Source: a virus. From it: a stretch of DNA of 39,687 nucleotides. Below the pieces are notes generated by a model, which saw only the letters and a list, made by a program, of their open reading frames with translations, was not told where the DNA came from and made no database searches. Shown here piece after piece: positions 545-38,499 of the stretch (position 1 is its first letter; each line of letters starts with the position of its first letter). The stretch spans positions 1-39,687 of IMG/VR virus record IMGVR_UViG_3300010401_000053. One strand, written 5' to 3'. The translations under genes were made by a program, and so were the position numbers.

Positions 545-817
545 TCAGGCCTCCCCTCTCCGGCGGGCCCAGGCGGCCCGCATCTTCGCCCGCGTCTCCT
601 CGGTGTGCCGGCGGCCCGCGAACGGCGCCCACGGCCGCCGCGGCCGCTCCGGCTCCGGGTCCGCCGCCGCGACGAGCGGTGCCGCCGCCTTCGCGAGCTC
701 GCCCAGGGCGGCGACGGTCGCCGGCCGCAGCTGCGGCTTCGCGTGCACGGCGAACGGCACGACCGGCTGATACGGCACGCCGCTGCGCCTGGCGCGGCGC
801 GCGCGGCTCGTGCTCAC
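545..817 (-). CDS. Small basic protein with a C-terminal NUMOD3-like motif
   Basis: A 90-residue, Arg/Ala/Pro-rich protein. Its C-terminus (about residues 68-90) reads RRHTEETRAKMRAAWARRR. This resembles NUMOD3 modules, the short DNA-binding helices found in GIY-YIG and HNH homing endonucleases, but no nuclease domain is present. Its GTG start overlaps the stop of the spanin-like gene (GTGA) and it ends just before the holin-like gene. It may be a DNA-binding remnant or a stand-alone regulator. Function unknown. Confidence 0.6.
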   Translation of the reverse strand: MSTSRARRARRSGVPYQPVVPFAVHAKPQLRPATVAALGELAKAAAPLVAAADPEPERPRRPWAPFAGRRHTEETRAKMRAAWARRRGEA

Positions 818-1278
818 CGGTTCTCCCCGGCGATGAAGCCGCTCGAGGGCTGCCGCGGGAGCGCCGAGACGGTCGGGCCCTCGTACGGCGGCGCCAGCGG
901 CGCGTAGCTGGTCGGCATCGCGTACCGGTCGACCAGGAAGCTGTGCATCTCCCTGACGAGCCCGTTGATCTCGTCGATCTTCGCCTCGAGCTTCGGGATG
1001 CGCGCGACCGCCGGACGGACCGTCCCGATCATCTCGTCAATGAGCGGCGCGGTGCGCGTGTCGTGCGCCTGCTGCCAGCCCTGGAGCGACGAGAGCAGGA
1101 CGTCCTGGACGGCGTCGTGCCCCATCTTCTCGCCGCGCGCTTCCGCTTCGACGACGCGGTTGGACACGATGGTCGCCACGTAGGTCTGGTGGCACGCCCA
1201 GGCGGCGAAGACGAGGCCTCCGATGCCGACGACCCAGTCCCGCACGGTCAGGCTCGAGAGGGCGTTCGGCTTCATCAC
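814..1278 (-). CDS. Membrane-anchored coiled-coil protein, spanin-like (i-spanin candidate)
   Basis: About 154 residues. One N-terminal transmembrane helix (about residues 15-35, VVGIGGLVFAAWA) is followed by a long charged helical region, with likely coiled coil around residues 85-115 (KLEAKIDEINGLVREMHSFL). That is the layout of inner-membrane spanins (Rz-like), which bridge to the outer membrane at lysis. The GTG at 1278 or the ATG at 1275 overlaps the endolysin stop codon, showing tight coupling. No embedded Rz1-like lipoprotein is obvious; the lipoprotein at 2012-2368 is a candidate outer partner. The topology is seen; the function is inferred. Confidence 0.55.
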   Translation of the reverse strand: MMKPNALSSLTVRDWVVGIGGLVFAAWACHQTYVATIVSNRVVEAEARGEKMGHDAVQDVLLSSLQGWQQAHDTRTAPLIDEMIGTVRPAVARIPKLEAKIDEINGLVREMHSFLVDRYAMPTSYAPLAPPYEGPTVSALPRQPSSGFIAGENR

Positions 1279-2015
1279 GTCACCTTCGGCCGCACGAGGG
1301 TGTCGAGGTCGCCGTCCTGCAGGTTGAGGACCGCCTCGATGGTGGCGAACGGGAAGCCGGCCAGCTCGAAGTGGGTGAAGTCGCCCCAGTCGGCCCCGGC
1401 GCGCAGCCCGAGGTCGCGGCCGTGCTCGGCCAGGCGCTTGTAGCGGGCGACGTCCTTCGGGTCGAGCCGGTTGGTGCCGAAGCCCTCAAGGCTGCCGGCC
1501 TGCTCGTCGCCGTCATCCTCGAGCGCCAGGTGATAGGCGCAGCTCGCCGGGATGCGCATCAGCGCCCCCTTCGCGAGCCGCTCGGTGTAGATGGCGCAGC
1601 TGCAGCTCGCGTCCTCGAAGCCGACCACCGCCTGACCGGCGGCCTCACCGACGAACTGCCGTGGCACCCGGGCCGTGCAGGCGCGCACCGGTGAGTCCCC
1701 GGCGGCGAGCGCGGGCCCGACGTGCAGGTCGGAACGGTGGCTGCAGTCCGGGCACGATCGCACCCAGCGCATCAGGTTGTGCCAGGACGCCCCCGGCCGC
1801 TTCCAGGTCACCACCTTCGACCGGTCGACGACTTCTCCGCGGCCGTCTCGGCCGAGGTTGTAGTCGGCGAGCTGCGTGGCCAGGTCGCGCCACGTTTCGA
1901 TGAGGCGCACGCCGCCGACGTCGGCCGCCAGCTCGCGGTGACGCGCGAGCAGCGGCAGCATGACCGGATGGAGCTGGTCCTCCGCCCGCTGGCGGACCAG
2001 CGCGGCCGGGCTCAC
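1275..2015 (-). CDS. Endolysin, peptidase M15 (VanY/Ply-type), with an 80-residue insertion in the zinc motif
   Basis: A 246-residue protein. Residues 1-80 match the N-terminal half of phage M15 L-alanyl-D-glutamate or D-Ala-D-Ala peptidases: a helical start, then RLIETWRDLATQLADYNLGR and VTWKRPGASWHN. The family normally continues directly as S-x-H-N-x2-L-A-x-D. Here that continuation (YHLALED) begins only at residue 161, so about 80 residues interrupt the motif. The insertion holds several cysteines (C88, C91, C113, C138, C140, C159). The C-terminal zinc histidine is present in ADWGDFTHFEL (H215). The usual aspartate aligns with E166 or D167. The GTG start overlaps the upstream stop. Whether the enzyme is active is unknown. 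Confidence 0.75.
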   Translation of the reverse strand: MSPAALVRQRAEDQLHPVMLPLLARHRELAADVGGVRLIETWRDLATQLADYNLGRDGRGEVVDRSKVVTWKRPGASWHNLMRWVRSCPDCSHRSDLHVGPALAAGDSPVRACTARVPRQFVGEAAGQAVVGFEDASCSCAIYTERLAKGALMRIPASCAYHLALEDDGDEQAGSLEGFGTNRLDPKDVARYKRLAEHGRDLGLRAGADWGDFTHFELAGFPFATIEAVLNLQDGDLDTLVRPKVT

Positions 2016-2368
2016 TGGCCGGGGAGGCCCTGCCGGCAGTCGTAGTAGCAGTCGCCGGAGACGTAGCAGAAGCGCGTGTTCGGCGTCAGGGTCTTCGCGA
2101 CCTGGAAGAGCTTGTCCGGGCCCGTGCCGTCGGCGTCGTGGCAGACGACGAAGGCGTCTCCGGCGGCGAGCTCCGGCGCCGGCGGCGCCGCGGCGACCAG
2201 GTCGCCGGTCTGCTCCATCACGGTCGGAAGGATCTGGTGATGTCCCCCACCCTCGCACCCCAGCAGGAAGAGCAGGGCGACGCAGATGGCGACGACCCCC
2301 CACCCGATCGCATCCGCCTTCCCGAACCGCGCCGGCGTCACCCACTCCACCCCGTTGTTCTGCTTCAT
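2012..2368 (-). CDS. Putative membrane lipoprotein, Cys-containing
   Basis: A 118-residue protein. A hydrophobic segment at about residues 21-37 (AIGWGVVAICVALLFLLGC) ends in a good lipobox (L-L-G-C), followed by a glycine/histidine-rich start of the mature part. The C-terminal half contains further cysteines (VVCHDADG, FCYVSGDCYYDC), suited to disulfides in the periplasm. Its ATG overlaps the previous stop (ATGA), and its own stop overlaps the endolysin start. It could be an outer-membrane spanin partner or an envelope protein. I recognise no family. Confidence 0.6.
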   Translation of the reverse strand: MKQNNGVEWVTPARFGKADAIGWGVVAICVALLFLLGCEGGGHHQILPTVMEQTGDLVAAAPPAPELAAGDAFVVCHDADGTGPDKLFQVAKTLTPNTRFCYVSGDCYYDCRQGLPGQ

Positions 2369-2709
2369 GGGCACCCCCCATCGCTTCGCATCGAGTTCCC
2401 GGCCAGGTCCCACTCGACCACCACGGGCGGGACGCCCTCGAGCATCCCCGGCCAGCCGTACAGCTCGTTGATGCGCGGCTCGGGCACCTCGAGCGGCGGC
2501 CCCGGCACCTGGCGCGACAGCGTCGTCGTGCACTTCGGGTGGAGGACGCCTGCCCCATCCGCGACCTCGATGGCGCGCCCGAAGGCGTCGAACTCGCACC
2601 GGTTCTCGAAGAGCAGGACTTCGGCGCGCAGCTGCCCCGCCGGCAGCCCGTTGCAGCTCAGGGTCGGCACGGTCCAGAGCACGAAGAGGGCGAGCAGCGC
2701 CGGCGTCAC
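2365..2709 (-). CDS. Small exported protein of unknown function
   Basis: A 114-residue protein. The GTG start overlaps the stop of the beta-helix gene (GTGA). The N-terminus TPALLALFVLWTVPTLSC is a short signal sequence, possibly of the lipoprotein type although the box before the cysteine (T-L-S-C) is not ideal. The mature part has an even, globular composition with cysteines at SCNG, RCEF, KCTT and the C-terminal GGCP. It lies between the beta-helix gene and the lysis cassette. No family recognised. Confidence 0.6.
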   Translation of the reverse strand: MTPALLALFVLWTVPTLSCNGLPAGQLRAEVLLFENRCEFDAFGRAIEVADGAGVLHPKCTTTLSRQVPGPPLEVPEPRINELYGWPGMLEGVPPVVVEWDLAGNSMRSDGGCP

Positions 2710-10680: not shown

Positions 10681-11421
10681 ATGAAAAGGTTCCTGGTGAC
10701 AATCTGCGCGGCCCTCAGTACCGGCGCGGCCATCGCCGACCCCGAAGTGCCGGCGACTGGCACGGCCAAGACGGGCTACATCGGCTTCCACCTGACGCCC
10801 GGCCTGGACGGATCGGACCGCCCCGTGGCGATCGTGGACGGGATCGTCCCCAGCTCGCCCGCATCGAAAGCCGGAATGCGACGCGGCGACACCATCCGGA
10901 GCGTGAACGGGATCGATGTCAGCGCCGGCGACGTCTTCGCCAGGACGGTCCACGAAGCGAAGCCGGACGACCTCCTGACGTTCGTCATCGTCCACGCGCA
11001 CAGCACATCTCTCCGGGCGGTCACGGTGAAGGTTGGCCAGTACACGCCCGAAGCCGCCGCTAAGCTTCAAAATATGAAGACCGGGGACCTGAAGAGCGTT
11101 GGGATCCCGACACTCGTCTACATCCCCCAGCGCCTCTGCTACACCGGCATCAGCTTCGGCGAGGCGATGATGCTTTCGGTCGCACCCCAAGGAAGTGTCA
11201 ACCTGCCGCTCGCCGAGCTCGAGCAATGCCGTCAGGTTGTCGAGCCTTGTCAGCCCCTCGGCCTGGTGCAACAGACCGGGTCCTCCACGACCGTGAAGAG
11301 AGGCGCCCGAAAGTACCGCCTCGAAGGGAACTGGAAGCCCCTGACCTTCAAGAGCGAGACCGAGTGCAACCAGTCCCGCTCCACCCAGCAGAGCGAAACA
11401 GCCGAGGCGACTCACCCGTAG
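10681..11421 (+). CDS. Secreted PDZ-domain protein (moron), only plus-strand gene
   Basis: A 246-residue protein behind GGAGGTCAC-ATG. The signal peptide is MKRFLVTICAALSTGAAIAD. A PDZ domain spans about residues 30-118: the carboxylate-binding loop is GYIGF (32-36) and the hallmark SPASKAGMRRGDTIRSVNG sits at 59-77, as in DegS/DegQ-type periplasmic PDZ domains. No protease domain is present. The C-terminal 120 residues are unfamiliar and contain cysteines (RLCYTG, EQCRQVVEPCQPL, TECNQ). It is transcribed against all other genes, with its stop 5 bases from the tape measure stop. Likely a lysogeny-expressed periplasmic protein that binds host or phage C-termini; its function is unknown. Confidence 0.85.
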   Translation: MKRFLVTICAALSTGAAIADPEVPATGTAKTGYIGFHLTPGLDGSDRPVAIVDGIVPSSPASKAGMRRGDTIRSVNGIDVSAGDVFARTVHEAKPDDLLTFVIVHAHSTSLRAVTVKVGQYTPEAAAKLQNMKTGDLKSVGIPTLVYIPQRLCYTGISFGEAMMLSVAPQGSVNLPLAELEQCRQVVEPCQPLGLVQQTGSSTTVKRGARKYRLEGNWKPLTFKSETECNQSRSTQQSETAEATHP

Positions 11422-16488: not shown

Positions 16489-17432
16489 GCCGCCTCGAGG
16501 AGGTAGGGCGCCAAGCGGGCCTCGCGCTGCTCGAACATCTGCTGCGGGCGCAGGTAGGAGATGGAGCCGTCCCCGAGCGACTTGCTCAGCAGGTGACCGG
16601 TGTCGCGGGTCATCAGGCGGAAGACGACGTCCTCGGTCGCCAGGCCGACGACCGCCTCGGGCACCGCGGCGAAGCCGGCGACGAAGACGGCCTTGTAGTT
16701 CTTGTTGCCCCGGCAGAACCGGGCGCAGCGGTCGACCAGGTCGATCCGACCCATGCCGCGGAAGCCCGGATAGTTGCGCAGCCCGGACAGCACGTAGGAC
16801 GAGCGCGGCACCGTCGTCAGCGTCTCGGTCGCACCGCCGGCGCCGTCATCGGAGTAGGCGACCTCGCTGAGCGACGTGACGGAGACGAGCGGGCCCGCGG
16901 GCAGGACCAGGCTGTTGCGGTCGGTGCCGTCGAGATAGACGGTGTAGGTCTGCTCGACGAAGGTGCGGCCCAGCCAGGCCTGGTACTCGTCCGAGACCTC
17001 GGAGATGAGCAGGTTGATGAGGGCGTCGAACGGATGCGAGTCGCCCGGCTGGATCGGCGTTCCGTCCGTGTCGAGCAGCTGCAGGCGGGTGCGCACCCGG
17101 TCGAGCGAGGTCAGGAGGGTCGCCGAGGGCGCGACGCCGGCGAGCACGGTGATCGGGTACTCCTCGGTGCGCTCGTCGGTGCCGGACGGGTTGGTGAGCG
17201 CGAGGGTGTAGATGCCGAGGCGGGTGCCGGTGAAGACGGCCTGCACCCACCCGGCCACGGCGTGGTCCGTGAGGGTGACGCCGGCGAGCTCCGACGGGGC
17301 CGCGAGGCGGTCCGGGCCCAGCAGGGCCTTGGACACGCTCGCGGCCTGGCCGGCGACGTACGCGCCGTCGACGTCCCGGACCGGGTGGAACAGGGTCAGC
17401 GGGACGCCGAGCTGCGCCTGATACCCCTGCAC
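16485..17432 (-). CDS. Head-tail adaptor with extra N-terminal domain (gp6/gp15-like)
   Basis: A 315-residue protein. The C-terminal half (about 110-315) resembles helical portal-adaptor proteins of the gp6/gp8 type: DRVRTRLQLLDTDG, INLLISEVSDEYQAWLGRTF, EQTYTVYLDGTDRNSLVLPA, RIDLVDRCAR and a final helix (EDVVFRLMTRDTGHLLS). The first 105 residues form a separate beta-rich domain (VSKALLGPDRLAAPSELAGV, FTGTRLGIYTLALTNPSGTD) like an Ig-type add-on. It is longer than usual for the family because of this domain. Confidence 0.72.
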   Translation of the reverse strand: MQGYQAQLGVPLTLFHPVRDVDGAYVAGQAASVSKALLGPDRLAAPSELAGVTLTDHAVAGWVQAVFTGTRLGIYTLALTNPSGTDERTEEYPITVLAGVAPSATLLTSLDRVRTRLQLLDTDGTPIQPGDSHPFDALINLLISEVSDEYQAWLGRTFVEQTYTVYLDGTDRNSLVLPAGPLVSVTSLSEVAYSDDGAGGATETLTTVPRSSYVLSGLRNYPGFRGMGRIDLVDRCARFCRGNKNYKAVFVAGFAAVPEAVVGLATEDVVFRLMTRDTGHLLSKSLGDGSISYLRPQQMFEQREARLAPYLLEAA

Positions 17433-17461
17433 GTCAGGCTCCTCTCAGGCGGCGCGCCGCC

Positions 17462-17917
17462 TCAGTTCTTCGGTTCGTGGGCCGCGCAGAACTCCGAGCC
17501 CTTCGCCGCCTTCCGCCCGCACGGGTTCCCGGCGCCGGTCTCGCCCTGGCACTTGCCGTCGCCGACGGGCGCGGGCCCGCCGCTGTCCTCGGGCGTGCTC
17601 GGCGTCTTCCCGCCGCGCGGCAGGATCGCCTTGGTGCGCTCGTTCGCCTGCCTGCGCAGGTTGAGCCGGCGCGTCATCACCCTGGCGTGGTCGAGGCCCA
17701 TGCCCTTGTACTTCTTCACGGCCGCGGCCTCGATGGAGTCCTTCTCCTCGTCGGACAGCTCGGGGAACTCGGCGTCCACCTCGGCGTCGTCCGAGGCCTT
17801 GACCGCGACGCGGCCCTGGATGAGCTCCTTCCCCACGGCGTCCGGGCACGAGATGATCTGGCGCGGGAGGAAGGAGTAGTTGTCCCCGACCATCCCCTGG
17901 ATCAGCTTCACGTTCAT
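17462..17917 (-). CDS. Unknown protein after the capsid gene, C-terminal Cys/His motif
   Basis: A 151-residue protein starting MNVKLIQGMVGDNYSFLPRQ behind AAGGAG. The middle is helical and charged. The C-terminus (about 122-148) has a probable zinc knuckle: C-x-G-x-T-x-A-G-x-P-C, then GSEFCAAH. The N-terminal part resembles small phage proteins encoded next to the capsid gene. The role is unknown; decoration or connector assembly are possibilities from position only. Confidence 0.65.
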   Translation of the reverse strand: MNVKLIQGMVGDNYSFLPRQIISCPDAVGKELIQGRVAVKASDDAEVDAEFPELSDEEKDSIEAAAVKKYKGMGLDHARVMTRRLNLRRQANERTKAILPRGGKTPSTPEDSGGPAPVGDGKCQGETGAGNPCGRKAAKGSEFCAAHEPKN

Positions 17918-37872: not shown

Positions 37873-38499
37873 TCAGGCGAAGGGGACCCCGGTCCGCAGG
37901 AAGTTCGCCGCGGCCGACCATGCGAGCCCCGGCCGCTCATAGTCGCCGTGCTCGTAGCCGGGGCACTCGAAGTCGATCACCGAGCTCGGCCGGCGGGTGA
38001 ACCCCTTCCAGCCGGACTGGCCGAAGGTCGACATCTTCACGACGTCGTCCTCGCGCGAGAAGAGGTTCACCGCCCGGGTGTAGTGCCCCGCCTTGTCCGA
38101 CCAGTCGTCGCGGCTGGAGAGGATCGAGCCCATCAGCACGACGCGGTCCCAGAACACGCGCGGCCCGGGCGCGTCCGTCATCGCGTGATCGACCAGGTAG
38201 CTCCCCATCGAGTAGCCGACGCCGTCGAGGACGATGCCGCCGCCGTGCAGCTCCTCGAGCTCGAGCAGCTGCTGCGCCACCCACCGCTGGAAGCGTCCGA
38301 CAAGGCGCCGGCGCACGGCGCCCCCGACCCACGGAAAGCGGACGGCGAAGGCCGACGTCCAGCCATACTCCCAGAGCAGCACGGCGACGATCTCCGGGTT
38401 GCCGGCGCGCAGCTGCGGCTCGAGCCCGGCGGCCCAGGCCTCCGCCTCTTCCTTGCTCGTGTGGAGGCCGTGGGCGAGGATGACGGCGCGCTTCGGCAT
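37873..38499 (-). CDS. Alpha/beta hydrolase (serine hydrolase)
   Basis: A 208-residue protein. The oxyanion-type start AVILAHGLHTSKEEAEAW, nucleophile elbow GVGYSMGSYLVDHA (S97 in G-Y-S-M-G), acid in FSREDDVVKM (D151 or D152) and histidine in CPGYEHGDYERPG (H184) form a full catalytic triad in order. No signal peptide. Start at the ATG at 38499; a GTG at 38541 is an alternative. It is the last gene of the late strand, just before the integrase promoter. Possible esterase, deacylase or lysis accessory; substrate unknown. Confidence 0.82.
   Translation of the reverse strand: MPKRAVILAHGLHTSKEEAEAWAAGLEPQLRAGNPEIVAVLLWEYGWTSAFAVRFPWVGGAVRRRLVGRFQRWVAQQLLELEELHGGGIVLDGVGYSMGSYLVDHAMTDAPGPRVFWDRVVLMGSILSSRDDWSDKAGHYTRAVNLFSREDDVVKMSTFGQSGWKGFTRRPSSVIDFECPGYEHGDYERPGLAWSAAANFLRTGVPFA

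Follow-up and report, generated by a model that had tools for sequence, protein, structure and literature searches.

The window analysed here is the whole of the virus record IMGVR_UViG_3300010401_000053, with 39,687 bases. It carries on its minus strand (2015 to 1275, GTG start, 246 aa) a gene for a divergent M15-type endolysin in which the zinc-binding motif is split by an in-frame block of 76-80 residues and the zinc-binding aspartate is lost. M15 endolysins are compact enzymes and antibacterial candidates, and the H-x6-D zinc motif is their fixed point. Judged from the sequences, the arrangement is a real and unusual variant of this common enzyme, absent from 179 relatives and seen in one sequence. 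A natural protein with a whole extra domain inside H-x6-D and with its Asp replaced would show that the site accepts added domains, and such a domain would test how rigid the zinc site needs to be; if inactive, the protein would offer a rare view of a lysis gene on its way to losing enzymatic activity. The explanation favoured here, to which sequence and models together give about an even chance, is that a divergent M15-type endolysin captured in frame a Cys/His metal-binding module after its first ligand and that this module is probably a lid or a substrate-contact domain.

Table 1. Features of the endolysin gene and of its neighbours, with positions in the window.
Feature	Position	Strand	Basis or content
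Divergent M15/LAS peptidase with insertion, complete gene	1275..2015	-	Translation, overlaps, homology of joined halves, Ply500 fold match
N-terminal peptidase half, residues 1-80	1776..2015	-	R43, Q48, G55, R56, S77, H79 (first zinc His)
Inserted block as first drawn, residues 81-160	1536..1775	-	HMM junction scan, without counterpart in homologues, in-frame coding
Inserted block, alternative boundaries, residues 82-157	1545-1772	-	HMM junction scan
CPDCSHRSDLH, residues 88-98, first half of Cys/His signature	1722..1754	-	Spacing as in CANCGHGRDKH, CRNCGHEQDAH
CSCAIY, residues 138-143, second half of signature	1587..1604	-	C-x-C-x2-[YF] end of phage modules
H162, zinc-Asp column under register 81/158	1530..1532	-	Alignment; better AlphaFold model
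E166, zinc-Asp column under register 80/161	1518..1520	-	Alignments; poorer AlphaFold model
C-terminal peptidase half, residues 161-246	1278..1535	-	W210, catalytic acid D212, second zinc His H215
Upstream protein, 120 aa, lysis cassette member	2012..2374	-	One hydrophobic stretch ending LLGC (lipoprotein-like)
Downstream protein, 154 aa	814..1278	-	N-terminal hydrophobic stretch (translation, hydropathy)

The record encodes terminase, portal, capsid and tape measure proteins together with an integrase and ParB, and it is therefore that of a tailed phage, probably a temperate one. Over the first 8 kb of the window, DNA similarity to known phage records was not found. The GTG start of the endolysin gene overlaps the stop of the upstream gene and its own stop overlaps the downstream start, by 4 bases each. 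The 120 aa upstream protein has a weak counterpart (26% identity over 89 aa, E 0.02) adjoining the gene in the endolysin slot of a sister phage, L003, which is 69% identical to the window phage in a tail protein; the two genes upstream of this slot in L003 are both weak counterparts of those of the window (26-28% identity, E about 0.02). The next gene in L003 is an unrelated 186 aa ORF (17011-17571, plus strand) in which lysozyme- or transglycosylase-like motifs were noticed by eye. Its search against Pfam and PHROGs returned no match, and one weak relative was found in an uncultured phage (E 8e-3). That a different enzyme-like gene occupies the same slot in the sister phage fits a lysis role for the window gene. 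M15 enzymes were also searched for in related phages and none was found. The 154 aa downstream protein, for which a family match was not found, is a possible holin or inner-membrane lysis protein from the look of its sequence.

Three further genes of the window were noted. A 77 aa ORF adjoining the lysis genes (545-778, minus strand), about 500 bases downstream of the interrupted endolysin gene, contains a NUMOD3 motif (E 8e-4, 19.7 bits, just below the Pfam cut-off of 20.4). NUMOD3 is a DNA-binding motif and a frequent companion of homing endonucleases. A PDZ-domain protein (10681-11421, plus strand; PF13180, E 5e-8) is encoded on the opposite strand within the minus-strand tail operon, and counterparts in the same relative orientation were observed in L003 (31% identity) and in L004 (25%). 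Finally, a 208 aa protein (37873-38499, minus strand) that starts MPKRAVILAHGLHTSKEEAEAW is alpha/beta-hydrolase-like by eye and has no Pfam match.

The intact endolysin gave nothing significant against Pfam, NCBIfam, PHROGs, PDB sequences, phage records or viral contigs. When the flanking halves were joined (residues 1-80 + 161-246), endolysins were matched in PHROGs (E 0.0047) and tblastn reached annotated CwlK-type endolysins, among them those of Bacillus phage Pascal (E 7e-5), Pseudomonas phage LPPA15 (E 2e-3, 94% coverage), a Halomonas phage and others; a Pfam match was not found for the joined halves. As HMM domains, the N-terminal half scored 28.9 bits and the C-terminal half 15.0 bits. 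R43, Q48, G55, R56, T70, G75, S77, H79, W210 and H215 correspond to invariant alignment columns. The first zinc His is present in its S-x-H-N setting, with S77, H79 and N80 in invariant or nearly invariant columns, and in the alignments D212 occupies the position expected of the catalytic acid, three residues ahead of the second zinc His (D212-F-T-H215). The conserved Trp, which is W114 in EndoT5, is present as W210, but its spacing to H215 is 5 instead of 8 and three residues are deleted between the two when compared with the family alignment. The roles of these functional residues were assigned by analogy with EndoT5/EndoRB49 (PMC10487532) and ChiX (PMC5778951).

Homologues were gathered from viral contigs (80 loci + 12 by DNA pattern), bacterial genomes (80 loci) and phage records, which amounted to 179 homologous segments at 178 loci, including a few overlapping records. 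The first zinc His and the Asp are separated by 6 residues in 178 of the 179 and by 12 in the remaining one, and the zinc Asp is Asp in every one of them. In the window protein, 82 or 86 residues lie between H79 and the Asp column, depending on the register. The earlier note had weighed against its own claim the possibility that the block belongs to some M15 subfamily. No counterpart of the block was found among the 179 homologues, and none of the M15 relatives found has it as a regular feature. In these alignments the in-frame insertion is real relative to the M15 family. The homologue with 12 residues belongs to the viral contig L192 (minus strand, with SSHQDRDGTGYGEAVD), and its lengthened connection indicates that the site tolerates insertions.

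The limits of the block were obtained by cutting the protein at every junction and scoring the product with an HMM of 86 homologues. Two equal optima emerged, one joining residue 81 to 158 (register 81/158, HNL-SCAYHLALEDDG, 62.1 bits) and one joining residue 80 to 161 (register 80/161, HN-YHLALEDDG, 61.4 bits), the intact protein reaching 46.0 bits as two pieces. Nothing better was found in a wider junction scan, and a third register suggested by some automatic alignments, with the Asp column at residue 86, scored lower and was rejected. The earlier note had described a motif cut after SWHN and resuming as YHLALED at 161. Both S77-W-H79-N80 and YHLALED at 161 are present in the protein, but they represent only one of two equally scoring registers, and the resumption of the motif does not hold, since the column that is Asp in 179/179 homologues becomes E166 or H162, at 87 or 83 residues after H79. 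This zinc Asp was reported to be strictly conserved (PMC10487532), and its absence in both registers makes activity doubtful. Since the defining H-x6-D feature is missing, we call the protein a divergent M15-type enzyme and do not count it among the regular members of M15_C.

Structure models were made with AlphaFold from the alignment of each register. The model of register 81/158 reached a pLDDT of 71.4 and a pTM of 0.67, with most flank blocks above 90, and it matched Ply500 with a Z of 11.9 over 126 residues at 3.0 A, both halves being spanned; further matches were LysB4 (Z 11.7), LysECD7 (9.7) and ChiX (9.6). In the N-terminal half, model pLDDT exceeds 90 across residues 11-80, counted in blocks of ten. 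From the shallower alignment of register 80/161, a model was obtained with a pLDDT of 62.7 and a pTM of 0.56, which matched Ply500 with a Z of 10.3 (125 residues, 3.7 A). For both models the best matches are the LAS peptidases Ply500 and LysB4, ChiX and EndoT5 being also among the matches. The earlier note would also have been refuted by a model in which the half motifs do not form one zinc site. Both models bring the two halves into one predicted LAS fold, but the canonical Asp ligand is missing; neither of the outcomes that the note named as refuting it was observed. A strand at residues 160-165 is common to both models, so that H162 at mid-strand fits better than E166. The alignments differed in depth (87 sequences for register 81/158, 34 for 80/161), and the support that the models lend to H162 is therefore a preference and not a proof. 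On these models H162 is the better supported candidate, compared with E166, for the replacement ligand. From alignments and predicted fold together, the joined flanking halves are homologous to M15_C/LAS endolysins. This homology, the fold models and the position of the gene in a lysis cassette all speak for the earlier identification of an M15-type endolysin that has a Cys-rich insertion in frame.

The block itself looks like coding sequence. Of the three sense frames, only that of the gene is free of stops across it. Its GC content at the three codon positions is 0.70/0.61/0.93, and none of the other five frames has a codon score as high as that of the gene (z=5.4 over shuffles). The codon signal is weaker in residues 81-130 than in the rest of the block, yet there too the gene's frame scores best of the three sense frames. 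The open frame and the GC-rich third positions described earlier were hence confirmed. By contrast, the word CTGATGCGC, which had been considered as an insertion scar, is present in five copies in the window. The gene contains 8 repeated 9-mers, as against an expectation of 6.2 from codon shuffles, 32% of which reach this number. A 9-mer shared near both edges of the block arises in about 1% of block codon shuffles, a weak coincidence noticed post hoc, and the word is not taken as evidence of a scar.

Six cysteines (88, 91, 113, 138, 140 and 159) are all located within residues 81-160 and none elsewhere in the protein, in agreement with the earlier count. The Cys/His order of the block is C88-x2-C91-x-H93-x4-H98 ... 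C113 ... C138-x-C140-x2-Y143. When this pattern was searched in a loose form through 810 kb of DNA in six frames, one other place was found, a short ORF of the contig L198 (13580-14050, minus strand; CRNCGHEQDAH...CPCPCF), a contig that also carries an M15 endolysin without insertion. This ORF led on to a module at the C-terminus of Gordonia phage proteins (CANCGHGRDKH...CPCTVY), and Gordonia phages account for 71/76 of the phage records matched by the module. The first half of the block signature has the same spacing as its equivalents in Sedona gp69, a Gordonia phage protein, and in the L198 ORF. An HMM of six phage modules aligned both halves collinearly with the block at 8.0 bits, a score reached by 10/4982 shuffles. 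The full C-x2-C-[GS]-H-x4-H ... C-x-C-x2-[YF] signature (residues 88-143) appeared in 0/200,000 shuffles, with a pattern chosen after seeing the block. These likenesses are suggestive of a captured small metal-binding module. As an observation on the phage module itself, its form C-x2-C-G-H-x4-H...C-x-C-x2-[YF] is conserved in about 70 Gordonia phage records.

Other searches with the block gave nothing significant against Pfam, PHROG and PDB, no relatives in viral contigs, and no internal source in the rest of the window or in sister loci. Several candidates were discarded, namely matches to Adler and CcrPW (E 0.1 and above), which were judged to be chance, the Adler match lying out of the annotated gene's frame, an unannotated plasmid match (best E 0.07) and phrog_8527 (E 0.15), which was not convincing. 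In the AlphaFold models the pLDDT of the block is about 40, and a hairpin at 120-125/128-133 is predicted in both at low confidence.

According to the favoured explanation, the gene product would be a phage endolysin of the M15_C/LAS type, with zinc L,D-peptidase activity, that captured the small Cys/His module of 76-80 residues in frame. In the models H79 is part of a short helical turn and residues 160-165 form a strand, so that the block lengthens the helix-to-strand connection near the zinc. It would thus stand in the short connection from the end of the helix with H79 to the strand of the second ligand, at the rim of the substrate cleft. The block would fold alone, probably round a structural zinc held by some of Cys88, Cys91, His93, His98, Cys113, Cys138 and Cys140, and it would serve as a lid that covers the cleft or as a domain that extends it and contacts the substrate. 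H79 and H215 would bind the catalytic zinc together with H162, in a three-His site, or with E166, and D212 would act as catalytic acid. As is usual for an endolysin without a signal sequence, the protein would build up in the cytoplasm and gain access to the wall once the holin opens. A bolder proposal, which we consider quite unlikely, is that the catalytic zinc site is formed across the inserted metal-binding domain with H79, H162 and H215, the metal or redox state of this domain setting the geometry of the site and the time of cutting.

Since the zinc Asp is missing in both registers, an inactive enzyme is a serious rival, in which the peptidase would be decayed and lysis would be carried out by another gene or by membrane proteins alone. 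The three-residue deletion between W210 and H215 points in the same direction. Nevertheless, the gene retains its frame, its codon bias and the remaining catalytic residues, and it occupies a lysis slot with its 4-base overlaps. A scan of window proteins, many of which matched nothing, revealed no further cell-wall hydrolase. Decay is considered unlikely. An artefact has a slim chance. A chimera, in which misassembled metagenomic reads joined the block into the gene, would agree with its presence in one record only and with the failure to find relatives of the block or of the whole protein in viral contigs, but the length of the block is a multiple of three, in frame and without stop, and its codon bias and GC are like those of the flanks. 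Moreover, the ligand position shortly beyond the block is altered as well, a change that would not be accounted for if the block had merely been joined into an otherwise normal gene. Introns are known to occur in phage lysis genes, and the break does fall in a conserved motif, as would be expected of a self-splicing intron or an intein removed from the RNA or the protein. Yet most of the block shows codon bias, no intron family was among the Rfam matches (E up to 5), group I introns being rejected on this ground, and the block is too short for an intein. It starts with L81 or M82 and ends with A160 or A157, and it has neither a Cys/Ser/Thr in first place nor a His-Asn end before a Cys/Ser/Thr. 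Removal by splicing is accordingly very improbable.

It was also considered that the block might act as a redox or processing switch, an inactive precursor being activated by disulfides that the cysteines form in the oxidising periplasm or by excision of the block. The cysteines are confined to the block, the peptidase having none, and an insertion that separates two zinc ligands would be a natural control point. Regulatory loops are known in LAS enzymes, EndoT5 having one that binds calcium (PMC10487532) and VldE a zinc-zipper loop (PMC11667670), but they sit between the Asp and the second His and not at the site of the block. In addition, the Cys and His residues (C-x2-C-x-H-x4-H...C-x-C) are spaced more like those of a metal-binding module than like those of a disulfide switch, and a cleavage site or signal was not identified. 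A switch of this kind is thus unlikely, and the captured metal-binding module is preferred.

Compared with known systems, the block has its signature in common with the phage Cys/His modules (Sedona gp69, ODay gp57, Tardus gp73, Verity gp73 and the L198 ORF). In these modules the halves are about 18-23 residues apart, versus about 40 in the block, and the modules are not embedded in an enzyme; their homology to the block is weak and no more than suggestive. The peptidase is predicted to share its LAS fold over both halves with the Ply500 endopeptidase domain (PDB 2vo9), LysB4, LysECD7, EndoT5 and EndoRB49. Like M15_C phage endolysins, it has both zinc His, the catalytic acid, the conserved Trp and Arg and a place in a lysis cassette, and it differs from them by the block of 76-80 residues, by the replaced zinc Asp and by the 3-residue deletion before the second His. 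In ChiX, a helix bears the first zinc His and a strand the last one (PMC5778951). The M15 homologue of contig L192 has the same connection lengthened, as in the window protein, but only by 6 extra residues and with the Asp kept. EndoT5 is a calcium-regulated L-alanoyl-D-glutamate peptidase whose calcium loop lies between Asp73 and His133. Close to its active site this M15_C endolysin has an extra element that binds metal (PMC10487532), as is proposed for the window protein, whereas the window block is Cys/His-rich and located between the first His and the Asp position. VldE (Spr1875), an L,D-endopeptidase of pneumococcus, also has a LAS fold with an extra zinc-binding loop, the zinc zipper, that closes the cleft (PMC11667670), but this protein is bacterial, its loop counts 13 residues (360-372) and lies just before the last zinc His, and its H-x6-D is kept.
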